64,000 bases of DNA from Geosiphon pyriformis (Eukaryota > Glomeromycota > Glomeromycetes > Archaeosporales > Geosiphonaceae): NCBI GenBank assembly GCA_016748015.1, contig JAAOMT010000258.1:407008-471007 (forward strand). The letters are read 5' to 3'. Positions 9,230-37,824 of this stretch are shown here, piece after piece (positions within the stretch are counted from its first letter, which is position 1; each line of letters starts with the position of its first letter). Both the position numbers and the translations under genes were made by a program. A model generated the notes under the pieces. The model saw only the letters and a program-made list of their open reading frames with translations, did no database searches and had not been told where the DNA came from.

Positions 9230-10509
9230 TCATTTTACCTTGGGCACTAATTTGAGCAATAATTCTGCAAGCATTGCAGAAGAATCGGGGAACTTCTCTG
9301 GCTCAGTGGTGATTTCTTTAAACTCTTTGGTCTCGCGAATTTTGGAAAAGTTTTCAATAAAAAAATCCATCACTGGCTCTTTAAGGTCAGGCCATTTGCT
9401 TCCAATCTGAAACAAGACGCCGCTTGCATTTGAGAAATCCAAGTTTTGTAGGATTTCTTGCTTCGCCAAGTCACGAAGCTCCTTAATCAGATATTTGTCG
9501 GCTAGGGCAAAAATCTTTTGTCAAAGAGAATCATAATGAGAATTCTTAAATTTTTGGTTGATAAAAAGATGCTCCCAAAAAGGCCTACCATTAGCGGATT
9601 ATTCGGTGAATCAGGGTTTTTCGCAAAGACGACCCCATTGGTATAAAGAAACCCAAGCATTTGGAGAAAGGTTTCATGATGAAAGTCTGTGACTTCAATG
9701 AAAAATCCGTTGCAGGAATTATTTTTAGACATTCCTGAACATGGAGACGGCTCATTAGAGTAGAATTCTTGTTTTAGTTCTTTTGCTTTTATTATTCGTG
9801 ACTCAGACCAAGATGACGTGAACATACTCCTAAAGTATTCAGACCTTTGGCTAAGGATTTGACTACTTGCAAAATACTTTTCGCCATTTACGCTGAATTC
9901 CACATCACAAGTAGCTTTATTTTTAAAGCTGTCTATCCAGATCGAAACGAGAGACTTGGGTATTTCAATATTTGATGATTCGAATTTGATCTCGCCGAAA
10001 TAGACACCGCACATGATGTAGTTCGGAAGAAGTGAAGTAAGGCAAAATTCTTTGTATCCTAAAGATAAATAGTTGTCGCCTCATTAACAAAATTTTTCAA
10101 ATAAAATAAAAAAACATTTGAAACTTACCCCAGCCAGTTCCAACCTGACATTTTGATAATGCTTCAGCCGATAATCTTCTTTTCGAAATAAAAGCCCCAG
10201 ACACCGGATTCTTGATAAAAATTGTGGCATATGGCAGATTTCTATTCGAATTATGTTTCCAATATTTCGCAGACTTATACAAATATAAGCTGCAAAACTT
10301 TGAAGTTTCTGGCGATTGCTTTTAAAGAAATTTTATTGATTCTGATTAATAATTTGATCCAGTCAGATTTCAAGAAGTTGGCATTATTTTTATACCATGG
10401 TAAATTGTAATTCCCAAAAATGGTCAGACGATATAGAAAAAACTGGACTCCAAATTTCACCTCTTGTCGAATGAACTTTTTCTACGCCAAATTCATGAAC
10501 ACTTATCAT
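9230..10509 (-). CDS. MATH-BTB domain protein
   Basis: Exons 10509..10396, 10318..10129, 10058..9589 and 9514..9230 give 352 residues. Exon 1 (ATG at 10509, MISVHEFGVEK...) ends FWELQFTM and matches exon 1 of the gene at 13416 (FWQLEFTP). Exon 2 begins after AAAAG with the MATH strands FCSLYLY and ATIFIKN. The MATH domain closes across the third exon at GWGYKEFC...LLPNYIMCGVYFG. The BTB fold follows (CDVEFSVNGEKYFASSQILSQRSEYF, split by a linker from FLQMLGFLYTNGVVF), then a BACK-like region (ALADKYLIKELRDLAK, SKWPDLKEPV). This is the SPOP-like architecture: MATH binds the substrate and BTB binds CUL3. The final intron (9588-9515) sits where the 13416 gene has one. The exon 2 acceptor is the least certain boundary. 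Confidence 0.87.
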
Positions 10510-13415: not shown

Positions 13416-14401
13416 ATGGCTGCATTCAGAGCTAGAGGAACCTTCGAATTTTTATTATCAAATGTTTCAAAGATGACTAGAGGAGTATATAGCCCACCGT
13501 TTGGAACACATGAAGACATGTTTTGGCAGCTTGAGTTTACACCGGTACTTTTTAAATATCAGCCCCGAAAAATTACTGCAAAAATTTAATGGTTTATTCA
13601 TAATCCGATATTTTGTTTTGTGTTCTGACAGTCTTGTAAAGATGATCCAGAATATTGTTCGGTGTATCTTTGCGCTATAGCAAATACCGAAGAGAAGCAT
13701 TCTACAGAGATTTGGGCCAGACGAGATGAAGTGTCAGCTACTTTATTTTTGAAGGTTCCATCGCCAAATGACACAGGATCTCATAATAAAGATTTGTAAG
13801 CAAAGCTTTTACAAATTTTCTAATTCGGTTGAACTCATGATAAATTACCTTTTTTTTTTTTTAGATTATATATCAAGAAATCATTAGATTTGGATGATTA
13901 TTCGGCAACTTTTCCATTATGGGGTTTGTTTGTTCATAATAAACTTTTAAATTGGTTAACGCTGAAATTAAATCCTAACATCATCATTCCATCTTAGGTT
14001 TTGACTGTTTTTGCAAAATGTCAGTTTTGCCCGACGAAATACTGCTGGGCGTCATATTTGACAAAACAGAATTTACACCATGGAGCATGAAAACTCCTTT
14101 CCCCACAAAACCCATCCCAGATTCATTGGCGGAAGCATGGGCCCTGACTTTAAATAAACAAGAGATTGTAGATGTTCAATTTAATGTTAAAGGAACAATG
14201 ATACATGCCAGTAGTACAATACTTTCGAAACGATCTGAATATTTTCAAAAGATATTTCAAGAAAAATGGTCAGAATCACAGAAGAAGGCTCCAAAACAAA
14301 GACAGAATTCAATATCCGGATCGTTACATTCTATTAACGAGCCTGGGACCTCACTCAAACAACCTTCCAGTACAAATAATAATAATTATAATAGTAATAG
14401 C

Positions 14402-14437
<36 letters not shown>

Positions 14438-14935
14438 TATAACAACAATAATCATAGTCATAATTCAGCTGGATGCAAATATAGTGTCGATGTTCCAGAT
14501 TTTGATCCTGCTACCTTTTTAGAAATGTTACGTTTTCTTTACACCGATCAAGTCTCATTTGATGAAAAATCGGATTCCCATAAAACTGCATTAGGTATTT
14601 ATTGTTCATAAATTCAGAATTCTAAAAAGCAGCTCAAATAAATACGTTTATTTGTAGATTTATTTGCGATTGCCGACAAATATTTAATATACGATCTTCG
14701 ACAACGAGCCAAAGTCAAAGTTTTTAAAGATCTAAATGATGATAACGCTGCTGGCCTTTTCTTTGGTGCCACTTGGAAATGGCCAGACTTGAAGGATCAC
14801 GTAATGAAATATGTCGTTGAAAATTTTAAGGCAGTTCGCAAAACATCAGGATTCAAGAAGGCTATTCTCGATCGAAGTTCCAATAGTCATACTGGAGAGC
14901 TCTTAATTGAGGTTCTAAATATCTTAGATTTATGA
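13416..14935 (+). CDS. MATH-BTB domain protein with Asn-rich insert
   Basis: Exons 13416..13544, 13632..13795, 13865..13923, 13998..14594 and 14658..14935 give 408 residues. MATH spans residues 1-140 (TFEFLLSNVSKM, FWQLEFTP, YCSVYLCAIA, ATLFLKV, LWGFDCFCKMSVLPDEILLGV). BTB starts near 174 (VDVQFNVKGTMIHASSTILS, KRSEYFQKIF) and resumes near 278 (TFLEMLRFLYTDQVSF). A long linker between the two halves of the fold contains an Asn run encoded by AAT repeats. The C-terminal BACK-like helices follow (AIADKYLIYDLRQRAK, WKWPDLKDHVMKYV). It is the best template for the neighbouring paralogues and closest to the truncated gene at the left edge. The likely role is a CUL3 adaptor. An ATG at 14018 could start a shorter BTB-only product, but the upstream exons splice in phase and encode MATH, so 13416 is preferred. 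Confidence 0.9.
14374..14440 (+). repeat. AAT microsatellite inside BTB coding exon
   Basis: AAT repeats with a few AGT, TAT and CAA interruptions, in frame so that they encode Asn. They sit in the linker between the two halves of the BTB domain, so length changes in multiples of three would be tolerated. Confidence 0.95.
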
Positions 14936-15711: not shown

Positions 15712-16023
15712 ATGTACGCAACGAATGAACCAGTTTCGACTACAACTGGCCTACAAAAAATATTCGGAATTGTGGGATTCATAATAATCCTTTTTTTGTG
15801 TTTCATTACTTGGAAACTAGGGAAAGCTATACAAAAAAATCATCGAAAAAAACTAGCTATTACAAGAGAGTTGGAAGAGGTGTGGGTTGTTCCAACAAGT
15901 ACAAATCAGTCATCTGGTATAAATTCACAACAAAATGATTTGGATGAAGCTGGTTCATCGTATTTGCCTCCTTATGATGAGGAAAAGTTACCAGCTTATC
16001 AAGAGAGGATAGATGAAGTTTAA
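15712..16023 (+). CDS. Small single-pass membrane protein with LPPYD/LPAY tail
   Basis: A single exon of 103 residues. The N-terminus is short and Thr-rich, followed by one hydrophobic helix at about residues 17-36 (IFGIVGFIIILFLCFITW), a basic stretch (KNHRKKL) and a soluble tail. The tail ends with LPPYD at 85-89 and LPAY at 93-96. The same paired motif with the same spacing ends the genes at 17678 and, internally, 18762. Positive charges after the helix suggest an N-out, C-in topology. PY-type motifs commonly recruit WW domains of NEDD4/Rsp5 ligases, and the layout recalls the RCR family, but I cannot assign it to a named family. Membrane location and ligase binding are inference. Confidence 0.75.
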   Translation: MYATNEPVSTTTGLQKIFGIVGFIIILFLCFITWKLGKAIQKNHRKKLAITRELEEVWVVPTSTNQSSGINSQQNDLDEAGSSYLPPYDEEKLPAYQERIDEV

Positions 16024-16450
16024 TAGATGCTTTGAGCACTTTTTGAATTTTAATGAAGATTTGAAAAAACTTTTTTTGAAAGTTTTTTTCTTTTTCTTTC
16101 AAAAAAATTCCGTGTACATTCAGGAAAGAACTTTATAAAGACGAACTTTCAACAAATTTAAAAGAAATTAACATACACATACTTTTATTTCATTTTTATC
16201 ATCACCTTTTATTTGCAAGAGATTATCAATTTGAAATATCATTTCTTTTTCATTTTTTCTTACTTATTTGATACGAAAACTATTGACATTTAATTGACAT
16301 TCAAGAAAAACCTTAATTGTTTTAATGTATAAAATTTTTTTTTAATATTTGCTCATTATGAATTTCCAAACATGTTTATTAAATTTTCCGAAATAATTTG
16401 ATTTTTTTTGGAAATTTACAAATGAATATTAAAAAAAAATACGAGATAAT

Positions 16451-16481
<31 letters not shown>

Positions 16482-17677
16482 CAATCAATATTAATTTATG
16501 AATACTGCGGACTCTACAAAATAAACAATAAAGTTATTTATTTACTAAACTTCGGTTGGGGTACAGAATAAAGAAAATGTACCATTATTTCAATCTGTCA
16601 CCACCAACTTTTTCCTTTGGTACTAACCCTAAATATTTTTAGAGAGAATATTCCCAACATATTTATGTAAAGAAGATTAAATAACAAATACTGCGTTCTT
16701 TGTAAGAATATTCATTCTTTAATTTAGATTTAAATAAAAGATATTCACATCAAAAAATTTAAAAAAATTGAAATTAAGATTAGAAAAATAAAATTTTATT
16801 TATCTCGGATATCCAGATTAAAAAATTCATTTCAATAGTGAATTATTCAATAAGAAGAGATAGGTTTTAATAAAGGGAATTATATAAATTTTAGGTGAGA
16901 TGACGTTTTATGTAATAAAACCATATCATGATAATTTTCTTGAGTTTCTTTCTGTATTGCAAAGACCATGGAAATTGCTTTGTCACCTTTAGAATGAAAT
17001 ATTCTACAGGCTAAAATAAACTCTAAATGCTTGAATCTTTTAAAAATTTTACCAAAATAATTATCAAACGACAAGAAATATATAAAATTCGGCTTTTTAC
17101 TAGCCGAAATTCGGGATAAAATTTTTAACCTTTTAGATTACTAGCTATTTCAATTTATGATAAATCATTATTCTAAAATTGTTATACATGAAATTTCCTT
17201 AAAATGTAGGGGAGGACATATTCCTTTTGTTTAAAATCTAAAATTCGATTTTAAAAATAATTTTTTTTAAATATTTAAGTCAATCATAATAATCATGAGA
17301 AATAAACTCACTGCGGAAAAACGAAAAGTTTAGACAATAAAAGGATAGCAGATATTGTTTATAAATTTCTATTAGAATATGATATAATGTTTATATTTTG
17401 TCTTTGATGCTGCTGCTGTTTATATTCTCGGTGAAATGAATTAAATGAGTCATTACTGCGGTAACAAAATTTTTATAGAATAAACTTTAAACATTTAAAT
17501 TACATATATATATTAAGACTCTCAATTCAGGTACAAAATGGAAAAAGGAAACTTGAAATTTTTGCTATTGACAAACCGAAATTTTAAAACTTATGAAAGT
17601 AACCTTGTTTCTCACAATCTCTTTGTAAAATTTGACAAAAATTCTTGATTAAAACAATCTTATTAACAGAAACCAAG
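16024..17677. other. Intergenic
   Basis: Holds a GTT repeat at 16451-16480 and otherwise AT-rich sequence. A minus-strand open frame at 17584-17988 is the antisense shadow of the next gene. Confidence 0.5.
16451..16480 (+). repeat. GTT microsatellite
   Basis: About ten uninterrupted TTG/GTT units in non-coding DNA. Confidence 0.95.
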
Positions 17678-18010
17678 ATGAGTTCACACCTTTTCCCGTC
17701 AGAAAAGTTATTTAAAGGTCTTTTGGGAACGATCGAGATCTTTGTTATTTTAATTCTTTTTGGGGGCATGTGGGAGTTTCGAAAACTTTTGAGATCTCGT
17801 AATCGAGAAAGAACTGAATTTGTTGCCAGAAATGGTGGAGTGATTGATTTAGAGGAAAACTCTGTAGCTACAGATAATTCAACTCTTTTTCGAACATTAC
17901 CATCAGATAAAGCTTTGTTAACATCAATGGAAAATGCGTATTTACCTCCATACGATGGTTTTACTTTACCAGAATATAAATTAAGCAAAGGAAGTGTGAT
18001 AGAAGAATGA
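17678..18010 (+). CDS. Small single-pass membrane protein with LPPYD/LPEY tail
   Basis: A single exon of 110 residues. The frame is open 33 bases further upstream, but the first ATG is at 17678, giving MSSHLFPSEK. One hydrophobic helix covers about residues 14-32 (GLLGTIEIFVILILFGGMW) and is followed by the basic run RKLLRSRNRER. The C-terminus carries LPPYD at 89-93 and LPEY at 97-100, matching the neighbour at 15712 residue for residue in spacing, while the linker differs. That pattern indicates tandem duplication with selection on the tail motif. A role as a membrane adaptor for a WW-domain ubiquitin ligase is plausible but unproven. Confidence 0.75.
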   Translation: MSSHLFPSEKLFKGLLGTIEIFVILILFGGMWEFRKLLRSRNRERTEFVARNGGVIDLEENSVATDNSTLFRTLPSDKALLTSMENAYLPPYDGFTLPEYKLSKGSVIEE

Positions 18011-18761
18011 ACGGAAATTCAAAATAGGTTCAAATCTATAAATAGAATCCAGACAGCTAAGGAAGGAAAAGTAAAATTTTCTCATTCCTCTTGAGAGAAT
18101 TGTGCATTAGATATGAAATTATTTTCAAATTCTAAAAAGATTCAAATCCTAATTCCCCGAGTTTGAGTCTAATAATTAGAAACAATTTTCAATATGCAGG
18201 ATAAAATTCCATAACTTGGAAATTTTTCAAGATTTCAATATGTGTGTGACAAACCAATCAGATTATCATTTTAATTCAGTCCTGAAAAAATTAACTAAGC
18301 CAAGTTGGTCCGTTTAGACCCCATTTTTCTATTTTTCTATTTTTCGTTGTACCATTGAAAAATCAAGTTACTTTTTAAATTTTATGCAGAATGTATATCA
18401 CCCTACCTTTACTACTTTACTATGCTAATTATAGGTAAACACAAACAGAATAGTATAGTAAAGTTGTAAGTCCGGATTGGTAATGTAAAATGTATGGTTT
18501 AGCAATTGCCGCAATCATTTGCAGTTCTAATATATTTTGTTGTTGGCTGAACCTATTACATAAAACTTTTTTTCTTTTTCTTTTTCTTTTTCTGTTTCTA
18601 CTTTCCCTGGCCAAAAAAAAAATCAGAAAATTAAGCCAAAATTTTCAGAGAACTTGAAATATCTTATGATTCCCAATGTTTTCAACTCTTTACTCTATAC
18701 ATATAATCTAATTAATAAAACCAACCTAAACCAAAATTTGAGATTTTACATCGTGTCTTAA
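18011..18761. other. Intergenic
   Basis: Contains a CTTTTT-type pyrimidine repeat near 18567-18592. No gene is recognised. Confidence 0.5.
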
Positions 18762-19424
18762 ATGAGCTCTCCAACCTTTTCATCGGATCAAACCAATTCA
18801 ACCCCGCGAGAAGGGGGTACAAAACCTCTTGGAAAAGTGTTAGGTGTCGTAATAATTGCTAGTGTTCTAATGCTTTTTTGTATTTCATGGACATGCTGGA
18901 AATCGATAAAGGAAGCTAAAAAACGACGACGAAATTCAAATACACTTGCACGTGATGCATTATCAGCAATAAATCGTGCTAGAGGTCTTGGTGACGGCGG
19001 TGGTGGTGGTGGTGGTAGTGGTGATGGTGGTGGTGGTAATCAAGGGTATAGAGAGAGTGATGCTGCGTCGATCGAAACTTTTTTACCTGCATATGATGGA
19101 GTGAATTTACCGGAATATAAAGAGAGAATGGAAGAGAATGATGATGGTCATGATCATGATCATGATGATGCAAATAGGAATCAAGGAGAAGATGGGATGG
19201 TTCGTATTCGAGTTGAAGATGATGAAGAGAACGACTCAAGGAATGAGATTCGTGATGGTGAGATCAATGATGAGAGGGGAAATGGTCAAGCTGACATTGA
19301 ACCAAGAAGAGAAGCAAATAATGAAAGTGAAAATCTGCAAACTTCAATAAACATTGCTGAAGAAGTAGAGAATGAAAATGGGAATAATAATACTCTGAGA
19401 AATCTTTCAGAGCTTCCCCCGTGA
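18762..19424 (+). CDS. Single-pass membrane protein, Gly-rich and acidic, LPAYD/LPEY motif
   Basis: A single exon of 220 residues starting MSSPTFSSDQ. One helix lies at about 26-44 (VLGVVIIASVLMLFCISW), then a basic stretch (KEAKKRRRN). A Gly-rich run at 77-92 is encoded by GGT repeats. The paired motif follows: LPAYD at 108-112 and LPEY at 116-119. Unlike the two neighbours, about 100 more residues follow. They are strongly acidic (Asp, Glu, Asn), begin with a His-Asp alternation (HDHDHDD), and could be disordered or metal-binding. The long His-rich open frame on the other strand is a shadow. It belongs to the same family as 15712 and 17678, and its two simple-sequence expansions suggest rapid change. 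Confidence 0.75.
   Translation: MSSPTFSSDQTNSTPREGGTKPLGKVLGVVIIASVLMLFCISWTCWKSIKEAKKRRRNSNTLARDALSAINRARGLGDGGGGGGGSGDGGGGNQGYRESDAASIETFLPAYDGVNLPEYKERMEENDDGHDHDHDDANRNQGEDGMVRIRVEDDEENDSRNEIRDGEINDERGNGQADIEPRREANNESENLQTSINIAEEVENENGNNNTLRNLSELPP
18991..19040 (+). repeat. GGT repeat encoding poly-Gly
   Basis: Interrupted GGT/GGC units in frame in the coding sequence; they translate to Gly with one Ser and one Asp. Confidence 0.9.
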
Positions 19425-21959
19425 GTCAAAATTTTGGAAAATTTATATTTCAATGCTGAATTTTGGAATTTAAACTTTGTTTGGATTATAAATCTTGATT
19501 GTATATAAATTATTCTAGTGACTAATGCCGAAAATTGGATCAAATCATCTTGAATATTATGAAAAGGAAAAAGATCAAGGATTTTATTCGATTCAAAAGA
19601 CTTCTCATTTACACGTTTATGATTGAGCGACCAGGAGTGATTCACCCCTGTTAGGCTTCTTTTGTAACAACCATTTTTAGCAAATGAGAATTAATATCCC
19701 ATTTCAAGGTTTTTCAATCTAGCCTTTTAGTTTAATAATAATACTCTAACAAGCATTTAAGCTTAATAATTTAAATTTTTATTTTAGAATTTTAAACATG
19801 GATCAAATAGGTTAACACCTCTTGTTCTTTGTTCTTTAGCTCTATTTGTTTAATAATGTATTATTATGACATTTTGTACCATTTAAACCAAAATTTTTTC
19901 AATTAAAGCCATTTAGTTAACTAAAAATCATGTTTTTTATTTCTGCTTTTTGAGCTTTTACAATTACTATTATTACTCAAGTGTCAAATTATTATGAAAC
20001 AATTTGGAATTTTTTAATTTGTATTGAAATTTATGAAAGTTTGGATGATTAGTTGTCAATTTACCTATGTAAATAATTTGGAAACTGGAATTTTTTTTAA
20101 AGGTAAATATTTTCAAAATATCATTCAAACATGATATAATTTTTTTGATGATGGGATTGTATCCAAGAATTAATTTCGTCGTAACAAGAAACAACACAAT
20201 TCCCATTAAATTGAAAAATAACCTTTTAGGTTAATACTGACAGGTGTCCTTGAGACATGGTAGTAAAACTTCTTTCCCATTTGTAGAACAACTTTTTTTG
20301 TTGAATACTAATTCCTAATCATAATTTCAATCACGAGGATACCTATTTCTCGTTGAATATTGGTAACTATCTTCATAAATAAAAGAGATTTTACGTTTTA
20401 AAATTTTGATATTTTAAAATTCGTATACAGTTTCATTTATTTGACGAACGCAATGTAAAAAAAAACCTTTGGGAGTTGATTTCGATGATTATCACAGACC
20501 GAACCAACTAAAATGGCATTCCCACTGTCTGAATCGATTGAATCGATCATTGAAATACAAAAATTGTCAATTATGACCTATTAAAAACATTCAATTAATG
20601 CATATAAACAGATTCATGAAACAAAGCCCTCAGAAATATCCTTTGAGCGCCATTTACATTATGTTTTATAACTTCACTGTAACTGTATAAAAGCAAAAAG
20701 GTATTAAAAGGTAAAAATTAAAAATAATAATAATTGTTATCTTTTTCCTTTATCTTATCATAATCAATGATATCTTTTAGTTAATAATTCCTTCCTTTTA
20801 ATTTGTAATCCTATCGATTAATAATCCTTCTGATTAATTATCATTCTAATTTCAGTTAATCATCTTTTAAATTAATTGATTATCTTGCAGTTAATCATTC
20901 CTTCTCTTCAATTAATTAAAAATATGATCCATTTATTTATCTTCTTAGTTATCAATATTTTTTTAATTTATATATCATAATTTATTAGTGAAAATTTGAA
21001 CCAAAAAATATTATGAACGTAGATTCGGTTTTTATTATTAATTTATTATAATAATATTATTTTTAATTTAATATTCAATTTATAAATTATTAATTATTTA
21101 AATAAAAAATTGGCTACAAGTTATTAAAAAATTTCAGTACACATATTTTTCAAATATTGAAATGAATTAACATATTATATATATGTTTGTATTTAAAAAC
21201 ATTTAAAAATAATAAAATTGTTATTGTTATTTAAAATTTACTTTTTGTACTTTAAGTACATATAGTAAATATAAACTTTTTTGATTTTAATGACAAAATT
21301 AAATTAATAAAAACTTTTATAATGTTAAAAAAATCATAAAAAGTGCATATTAGTGCCAGTAATAAAAAGTGCACAAAAATTTAAAACAATAATAATAAAA
21401 AATTAAAATTAGAGGTTTTGAAATCAAAAAAAAAATATAGAAAAAATTTTCTTTATAAATATTCTGTTTAATTGAAATGCAATTTTAGGAATGAAACAAG
21501 AGTATTAAAAATAAAAAATACAAGAAAAAAGAGTATAATAATTATCGATCATCTTGAAACAACTGTTTAATAATAGTCAAGTTCAACCCATCCTGTTTAA
21601 AATAATTATTTAATATAATACTACATTTTTTAAAAAAATAGTTAATTGACTTAACTAGCTAATTTCGATTTATTTTCAAAAAGGAAAATGAGATTTATAT
21701 TATTATTTAGATAAACAAAAAATGGAAATTTAGGTTATATTATTATATTTAGATAAATAAATTCACTCGCTCACTATCAAATAGGTTAAGCTAAAATGTA
21801 AATTTTCATGAAGTTATCTTTTCTAAATACATTATTACTAAATTCCAATTACCCAATTACATGCTCATTAAAATTTAAAACTTATATAATTTCTGGAGAA
21901 CATTATTAAATTTGAACTGATATCTTGAAAAATCATATAAGTGTTCCCTTCTGTCAATT
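19425..21959. other. Intergenic, AT-rich
   Basis: No gene is seen. It includes a degenerate TTAAT-rich repeat (20737-20930), then an A/T-only-like stretch to about 21700. Confidence 0.5.
20737..20930. repeat. Degenerate TTAAT/ATTCCTTC repeat
   Basis: Variants of GTTAATAATTCCTTC, GATTAATAATCCTTC, GTTAATCATCTTT and GTTAATCATTCCTTC recur every 15-45 bases. This looks like an old diverged tandem repeat. Confidence 0.6.
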
Positions 21960-22253
21960 TCATATGATAATCTCTGCTTGTACATATTCAGGACTTATAC
22001 ATCTTTTCTCTCGCTGTCTCATTTGATTCTCAGCATCTCTTCTTTCTCGTCGTTGTCGAAGACGGCGTAGCCAACTACTAACCACCCACCCGATTCCAAA
22101 AAGTAATAGTATTATAAAAATAACCAGTACGATACTTGCTAATCCTTTGTTGATACTACTTTCCGGTATTGATGCTTGGATCTCCGAGGTCGTTGAGTTG
22201 GACATTGAAAAGGATGCTTGAGATGAATTGTTTGATGGCATATAAAAAGACAA
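21960..22253 (-). CDS. Small single-pass membrane protein, divergent relative of the LPxY group
   Basis: A single exon of 97 residues. A Ser/Thr/Asn-rich N-terminus is followed by a strong helix at about 38-58 (LASIVLVIFIILLLFGIGW), a very basic segment (RRLRQRRERR) and a short tail ending SPEYVQAEIII. Size, topology and position match the three plus-strand genes to the left. The LPxYD...LPxY pair is missing and only SPEY remains, so it may be a truncated or diverged member. There is no sequence proof of common origin. It could also be an unrelated small membrane protein. Confidence 0.6.
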   Translation of the reverse strand: MSFYMPSNNSSQASFSMSNSTTSEIQASIPESSINKGLASIVLVIFIILLLFGIGWVVSSWLRRLRQRRERRDAENQMRQREKRCISPEYVQAEIII

Positions 22254-36768: not shown

Positions 36769-37824
36769 TTAAACGGGCAAAGTTTCTATGGGTCTACTAG
36801 GGAGAAGTAGGAATTGTTTTTGCAATTCATCAAGCAAATTGCCTGAATGTGATGCGAGTTGCAGAATTTGGTTTCCCAGAGAACGATTGTTATAAATGTA
36901 TTCTTCTAAATTCTGGGATTCCGAGTAACTGATTGGAATAGCGTAATTTGGATATTCTTCCCATATTGGATGATAATTAAGGTGTGCTGCCTCTGAGGGA
37001 AAGAGAATTGAGTTTCCCGGCAAATTTTGTTGAGCTAGTAGTTGATTCTCCACGAGTTCAAACGATGAAAAATTTTGTATAGCAAGCATTGGAGTTGTAA
37101 GCATCAACGCCTCACATTCAATCGGAAACTCGTTGGACGCAACGGAAGGATAGTTATGTTGACTTGAATTACAATGATTAGATGGTGAGGAAATTGGATA
37201 AATGTGATTACTTGATATCGGAACACGAAGATTACTTTTTTGAAAAAGAGTTTCTTCATTTGTAGTCGACACTTCCGTCTTACAATATTTATCAGAAAGA
37301 GGACCAAATGAATCTTCAGCACATATATCAACCGTTTGCTGTGATAAATCATCGAGAGACACAGGAGCTTGAAACGCAGCACTCCAAACGTGATGAAATT
37401 GATCATATGAAGCAAAGTTTGAATCTTTCTTGATCGCTGACTTTCGATTCTTCAATTTGTCATGCTCCTCGGCTTGTAGTTGTAAAGTCTCAACGCAAAT
37501 TTTTTCAAACTGACGTCTAGCCTCCAACATTAGGTCGTAGTATTTTGCTTTAACATAAGCTGGCTCTTTGATCCAAAGTTTTCCTGCTAGTCGAGAAAGT
37601 TCACGCATTTTGTACCTCTCCTTTAAGGTTGGACTAAATTCACGATATACTGCCATTCGGTAGGCAAAAAAAGCATTTGGAGTTTTTGAAAGTTTTTTGT
37701 TCTTTTGAAGTTTCTTTAAGGCATTTGACATTAAATCTTGTACCGTAAGTTTTGGCGGAAAAGAAGGTTTAATAATATCTAAGGGTAACTGAGTTACAGA
37801 TAATTTCTCAAAAATTGGTTGCAT
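36769..37824 (-). CDS. HMG-box (MATA_HMG-like) transcription factor
   Basis: A single exon of 351 residues, ATG at 37824. An HMG box spans about residues 47-107 (SKTPNAFFAYRMAVYREF, then the helices LSRLAGKLWIKEPAYVKAKYY and EARRQF) in the style of the MATA_HMG/Sox class, which bends DNA through the minor groove. Residues 108-351 have no recognised domain, are rich in Ser, Asn, Gln and Pro, and probably form a disordered regulatory region. Mycorrhizal fungi carry expanded sets of these genes, so a mating-type role should not be assumed. There is no homeodomain or other mating-locus gene in view. Simple repeats flank both ends. Confidence 0.88.
   Translation of the reverse strand: MQPIFEKLSVTQLPLDIIKPSFPPKLTVQDLMSNALKKLQKNKKLSKTPNAFFAYRMAVYREFSPTLKERYKMRELSRLAGKLWIKEPAYVKAKYYDLMLEARRQFEKICVETLQLQAEEHDKLKNRKSAIKKDSNFASYDQFHHVWSAAFQAPVSLDDLSQQTVDICAEDSFGPLSDKYCKTEVSTTNEETLFQKSNLRVPISSNHIYPISSPSNHCNSSQHNYPSVASNEFPIECEALMLTTPMLAIQNFSSFELVENQLLAQQNLPGNSILFPSEAAHLNYHPIWEEYPNYAIPISYSESQNLEEYIYNNRSLGNQILQLASHSGNLLDELQKQFLLLPSRPIETLPV

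Follow-up and report, generated by a model that had tools for sequence, protein, structure and literature searches.

Within a 64,000-nucleotide stretch of the Geosiphon pyriformis genome (assembly GCA_016748015.1, contig JAAOMT010000258.1, positions 407,008 to 471,007; hereafter the window), three neighbouring genes, termed genes 1-3, encode predicted small membrane proteins carrying a pair of LPxY motifs at fixed spacing. Their sequences suggest that they are anciently duplicated, strongly diverged paralogues which cross the membrane once, probably with the N-terminus outside and the C-terminus inside; the cluster is probably fungal. We consider it rather likely that these proteins act as Rsp5 adaptors, recruiting the ligase to a partner. 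This reading is favoured because genes 1-3 fit the class, combining a membrane anchor, a drifting linker and a constant dock.

All three genes lie on the + strand: gene 1 (P0001, 103 amino acids (aa)) at 15712..16023, gene 2 (P0002, 110 aa) at 17678..18010 and gene 3 (P0003, 220 aa) at 18762..19424. Their products share a common plan, in which a short N-terminus is followed by one predicted helix (approximately residues 14-32, 11-29 and 23-41, respectively), a basic stretch and a tail with the pattern LP[PA]YD-x3-LP[AE]Y. Regular-expression matching placed the motif pair LPPYDEEKLPAY of gene 1 at 15964..15999, LPPYDGFTLPEY of gene 2 at 17942..17977 and LPAYDGVNLPEY of gene 3 at 19083..19118 (all +); in gene 3 it stands between a Gly-rich linker and a 101-residue acidic extension. 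Each protein displays a single hydropathy peak (19-residue values of 2.53, 2.12 and 2.58 for genes 1, 2 and 3). Net charge is -1, 0 and 0 ahead of the peak, counted over at most 15 residues, and +6, +3 and +5 over the 15 residues that follow it. By the positive-inside rule the tail would be cytosolic, with charge as the sole guide to orientation.

Across the six unspliced frames of the window, the expression LPxYDxxxLPxY matched three times, always inside genes 1-3, when composition predicts 2.7e-5 matches; 60 simulated 64-kilobase (kb) sequences gave none, and the pattern never arose in 300,000 shuffles of each of the three tails. The gap between both LPxY motifs is identical, at four residues, bearing out the original prediction that the three genes share a helix, a basic stretch and one motif pair. 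The same prediction held that conservation is limited to the motif, and among the three paralogues this could be measured. In a MAFFT alignment of genes 1-3 (A2), 7 of the 12 motif columns are invariant; among helix columns the figure is 4 of 21, and among the other ungapped ones 4 of 58. Any two of the proteins are 58-75% identical across the motif, 24-38% across the helix and 19-21% in the rest. BLASTP E-values (E), each for a single comparison, were 2e-8 for genes 1 and 2, 3e-7 for genes 1 and 3, and 7e-6 for genes 2 and 3, the last alignment spanning only 14 residues of the motif.

Chance reading frames are to be expected in AT-rich sequence such as this: the 60 simulations held 39 open reading frames (ORFs) of at least 100 aa, or ~0.65 per 64 kb, 19 of at least 110 aa and none of 220 aa. 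Length is a weak argument here, and by itself is no evidence for genes 1 and 2. That the ORFs are chance frames or pseudogenes is nonetheless hardly credible, as three identically spaced motifs each follow a helix and a basic stretch, the in-frame codon score (trained on a small set of four long frames from the same genome) is the best of six frames in genes 1-3, and gene 3 is longer than any simulated ORF.

In the mechanism that we propose, the helix would anchor the protein in the membrane and the cytosolic tail, with its two WW-domain ligands, would bring the Rsp5/NEDD4-type ligase of the organism to membranes. There the helix or the N-terminus would hold a partner membrane protein, which would be ubiquitinated, perhaps together with the adaptor itself, and sorted to the endosome or vacuole. 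A constant dock joined to a diverging helix, linker and N-terminus would be expected if each paralogue had its own partner or compartment. Published work describes LPxY as an Rsp5/NEDD4 ligand (PMC1557994, PMC12101832, PMC12720080), and an array-based yeast WW-domain network recorded interaction with Rsp5 for 24 of 38 LPxY proteins (PMC1557994). SUSD6, which has one helix, uses LPxY, and activation of WWP2 by NDFIP2 requires several PY motifs (PMC12720080).

The genome itself (124.7 Mb, 406 contigs) was searched for ligases and WW proteins. At E up to 0.001, HECT pieces number at least 13, over four contigs, and WW matches at least 15, over nine. The two domain types come together at one locus, on contig C258, where three WW domains precede five HECT pieces (C258:131768-134080). 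Upstream of these, one exon matches C2 at 6.4e-11 and the next at 0.013, below the cut-off. By its predicted C2-WW3-HECT order this gene is an Rsp5/NEDD4-type ligase. Its WW2-WW3 exon hit 35 different PDB sequences with E no higher than 1e-10, the best being Itchy (1.2e-41), NEDD4-like (2.8e-38) and WWP1 (9e-34), with RSP5 at 3.5e-23; further WW proteins, YAP1 and MAGI among them, are also matched, more weakly than the best of these chains. A Bsd2/Ndfip-type adaptor (NEDD4_Bsd2, PF10176) is present on C370 as three pieces, over the cut-off, with a best E of 6.8e-8. Features of Rsp5/NEDD4 adaptors are present in that L/PPxY-type motifs occur in a tail placed by charge on the cytosolic side and a C2-WW-HECT ligase occurs in the genome. 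The original reading of the motif pair as a WW ligand is plausible on the strength of the published LPxY ligands and of this ligase; binding itself, like ubiquitination and cargo, is what we infer from sequence.

The abundance of WW matches raises the alternative that the motif pair serves another WW protein, such as a Sel1-WW chimera on contig C321, or another module altogether. Three of the WW matches lie inside a Sel1-repeat gene and correspond to the WW part of the Rsp5 gene, yet the chimeric frame reaches a stop just beyond its third WW domain, and only one of the two Trp residues remains in that domain. A further WW pair, on C210, by eye resembles that of a Prp40-type splicing factor. 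In the portions of the literature examined, moreover, NEDD4-type WW domains are the best-documented partners of LPxY, and we regard service to another WW protein or module as quite unlikely. The chimera is an observation in its own right: at C321:243523-244355 (L021/L030), a stretch that corresponds to the Rsp5 WW region, introns as well as exons, sits inside the Sel1-repeat gene and is 86% identical to C258:131509-132461 over 776 alignment columns and 93.5% identical over 108 bases, with ~70 bases between both matched pieces absent. In-frame Sel1 repeats were found upstream by Pfam, and Sel1-like residues were recognised downstream by eye.

The tyrosines could also be read as YxxPhi motifs, which are clathrin-adaptor sorting signals, instead of WW ligands. 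YDGF and YDGV are present in genes 2 and 3, but YDEE of gene 1 does not fit, and such signals would leave the invariant Leu-Pro ahead of each second Tyr-containing position unexplained; we hold this to be very improbable.

A closer contender is that genes 1-3 are clients of Rsp5, not adaptors, their PY pair serving solely their own ubiquitination and vacuolar delivery, as in yeast Sna3, a protein with two transmembrane helices. Starting at the Trp that follows the helix, genes 1, 2 and 3 have 6, 4 and 5 lysines, and none of the three contains a Pfam domain above the cut-off. Like genes 1-3, Sna3 carries its PY motif in a C-terminal cytosolic part and is sorted in an Rsp5-dependent manner, reaching the vacuole only via its PPAY and the Rsp5 interaction (PMC2171029); unlike them, it has PPAY in place of an LPxY pair. 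Diverging helices and N-termini would better suit different partners, which is a weak argument for adaptors. Sequence alone cannot separate adaptor from client, and we consider the client role the less likely of the two, though one to be taken seriously.

Several points weigh against the adaptor role. Selection on the motif was judged from three paralogues in one genome, and codon bias is clear for gene 3 only, being modest in genes 1 and 2. The extended PY consensus calls for a hydrophobic residue at Y+3, a rule followed by genes 2 and 3 that gene 1 does not fit. In the C258 ligase, 28 residues separate the WW2 match from the WW3 match (132281 to 132366). PTPN14, Dendrin and AMOT are not small membrane proteins. 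As tandem-PY ligands of KIBRA and MAGI, they (PTPN14 PY12 in the first case) resemble genes 1-3 in having two close PY-type motifs with a conserved gap, but strong tandem-WW synergy requires a gap of exactly two residues, against four in genes 1-3 (PMC6744271), and we rejected a high-affinity ligand of the KIBRA type. Given the four-residue gap and the distance between WW2 and WW3, a KIBRA-like clamp is therefore improbable, and the fixed gap probably provides modest avidity or one extended epitope. LPxY is also common, occurring in ~7% of yeast proteins (PMC1557994); in NEDD4 interactomes its sites lie in more ordered parts of proteins than PPxY sites do and are buried more frequently, and the presence of a motif does not guarantee binding (PMC8509885). 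Finally, one study reports that Rsp5 is dispensable for the role of Rcr1 in chitin deposition, and Nedd4 for that of Commissureless (Comm) in midline crossing (PMC5578492), the latter being contradicted by a later study (PMC12101832).

It had been suggested that no described family carries such a double motif, which the literature does not support: Comm has PPCY and LPSY, and yeast Rcr1 and Rcr2 have PPSY and VPEY (PMC12101832, PMC5578492). Comm of insects (PF15957) is, like the products of genes 1-3, a short transmembrane protein with a cytosolic PY pair, in which PPCY (220-223) and LPSY (229-232) are separated by five residues; the extended motif GLPSYDEAL has acidic residues after the Tyr (PMC12101832, PMC5578492), and conservation outside the motifs is remarkably low (PMC5578492). 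In Drosophila, the PPCY/LPSY protein is an adapter bringing Nedd4 to Robo1, leading to ubiquitination and lysosomal degradation (PMC12101832). Unlike Comm, genes 1-3 carry LPxY at both sites, with a four-residue gap. Proteins of genes 1-4 (gene 4 is described below) were searched against Pfam at E up to 1. Membership of the Commissureless family was rejected, gene 1 scoring E = 0.027 and 15.1 bits against a cut-off of 27, with genes 2 and 3 unmatched.

Vertebrate PRRG proteins such as PRRG4 are likewise transmembrane, with a cytosolic LPxY and PPxY tail that binds Nedd4 (PMC5578492); their extracellular Gla domain sets them apart, the N-termini of genes 1-3 being too short for one, and the likeness is one of layout. 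Rcr1 and Rcr2 (PF12273) are transmembrane Rsp5 adaptors with a Comm-like layout (PMC5578492, PMC9105457), and Rcr1 binds Rsp5 through its PY motifs (PMC5578492). As in genes 1-3, one helix is followed by PY motifs, on a side that for our proteins was assigned from charge. The RCR-like layout of the original prediction stands; membership of the RCR family was rejected, no RCR match being found in genes 1-4 in the Pfam search. A search of the Geosiphon genome for RCR was also empty, an uninformative result because control genomes gave no match either. NEDD4_Bsd2/Ndfip (PF10176) was equally unmatched in genes 1-4. Gene 3 matched TMEM100 at E 3.8e-4 with 20.5 bits, short of the cut-off of 34; this match is confined to the helix and the basic residues behind it, and was judged compositional.

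Searches of the genome for further copies with whole proteins of genes 1-3 returned none, and tail queries of 22-24 residues each found only themselves. The sensitivity of these queries was poor: gene 1 found gene 2 at E = 0.33 and missed gene 3, and the queries with gene 2 (cut at E 0.001) and gene 3 found themselves only. As known siblings were missed, three is a lower bound, and the LPxY-pair family may well be larger. Profile A2 gave 18 pattern matches in viral contigs and 64 in prokaryote genomes, and profile A4 gave 34 in viral contigs, none of which was confirmed; these results have no bearing on fungi.

A fourth gene (P0004, 93 aa; 21960..22241, - strand) encodes a single-pass protein with the tail SPEYVQAEIII and without the LPxY pair, as originally predicted. 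It has paralogues on contigs C331 and C118 of the same genome (E 2.4e-13 and 2.4e-11; 42% and 41% identity across the matched part), and a search started from the C118 copy recovers the same family. A further row of the search with gene 4, on C344 (E 1.7, two internal stops), was dropped as chance. The paralogues (L036 1345-1740; L037 1369-1758) have one predicted helix and no Pfam match at E up to 0.01. Common to all three members are EIQA ahead of the helix, the helix itself, arginines behind it and an AEIxI tail; LPxY is absent from all of them. SPEY of gene 4, and IPAF at the same position of the C331 copy, may represent a single, degenerate PY-like site; the C118 copy has KPGA there. The codon score of gene 4 is not best in the true frame (0.197, against 0.249 for another frame); its conservation at the protein level is visible in its paralogues.

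We considered whether gene 4 could be a decayed fourth copy; the paralogues and the separate conserved tail of this gene led us to reject that as the simplest reading. An LPxY exon hidden behind a gene 4 intron was also rejected, no such pair being found on the minus strand in unspliced frames of the window. The 16 Pfam matches of gene 4 are all below their cut-offs, the best being LapA_dom (1.8e-5, 25 bits against 28), and were likewise judged compositional. When the profile of genes 1-3 was compared with that of the gene 4 family by hhalign, the helix and juxtamembrane part aligned with a score of 48.6 and a probability of 93.8%, whereas column shuffles of the gene 4 family profile (helix and basic stretch) reached at most 36.2 in 100 trials. 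Distant kinship of the four genes is therefore likely: one remote ancestor probably gave rise to both groups, each of which has a conserved tail of its own.

Elsewhere in the window, three ORFs with BTB/POZ domains (20-622, 9502-10014 and 14018-14611; Pfam BTB 2.6e-10, 9.6e-12 and 8.7e-13) perhaps form a local family. A 351-aa ORF at 36769-37824 (-) resembles an HMG box over part of its length (PF00505 at E 5.8e-5 and 23.9 bits, the cut-off being 25.4; MATalpha_HMGbox at 0.0053). AT-rich sequence, BTB genes and an HMG-box-like gene would all fit Glomeromycotina, the group suggested originally.

The exact LPxYD-x3-LPxY tail was not found described in the portions of the literature examined, and no Rsp5 adaptor of arbuscular mycorrhizal fungi was found in the literature searched, as judged from titles and the beginnings of abstracts; the kind of protein is known, and the LPxYD-x3-LPxY form appears undescribed within that literature. 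Tentatively, and short of calling it probable, we suggest that these single-pass Rsp5 adaptors form a lineage-specific family which has converged on Commissureless, in which the dock would have stayed fixed through tandem duplication while helix, linker and N-terminus diversified for different cargoes. Gene 4 and both of its paralogues would be an AEIxI-tailed sister family sharing the membrane part. If true, this would enlarge the Rsp5 network of this organism by a group of small adaptors and offer a natural test of PY spacing for a ligase with loosely joined WW domains, and a fixed dock on drifting proteins would provide a simple sequence signature for ligase adaptors that are missed by profile searches.

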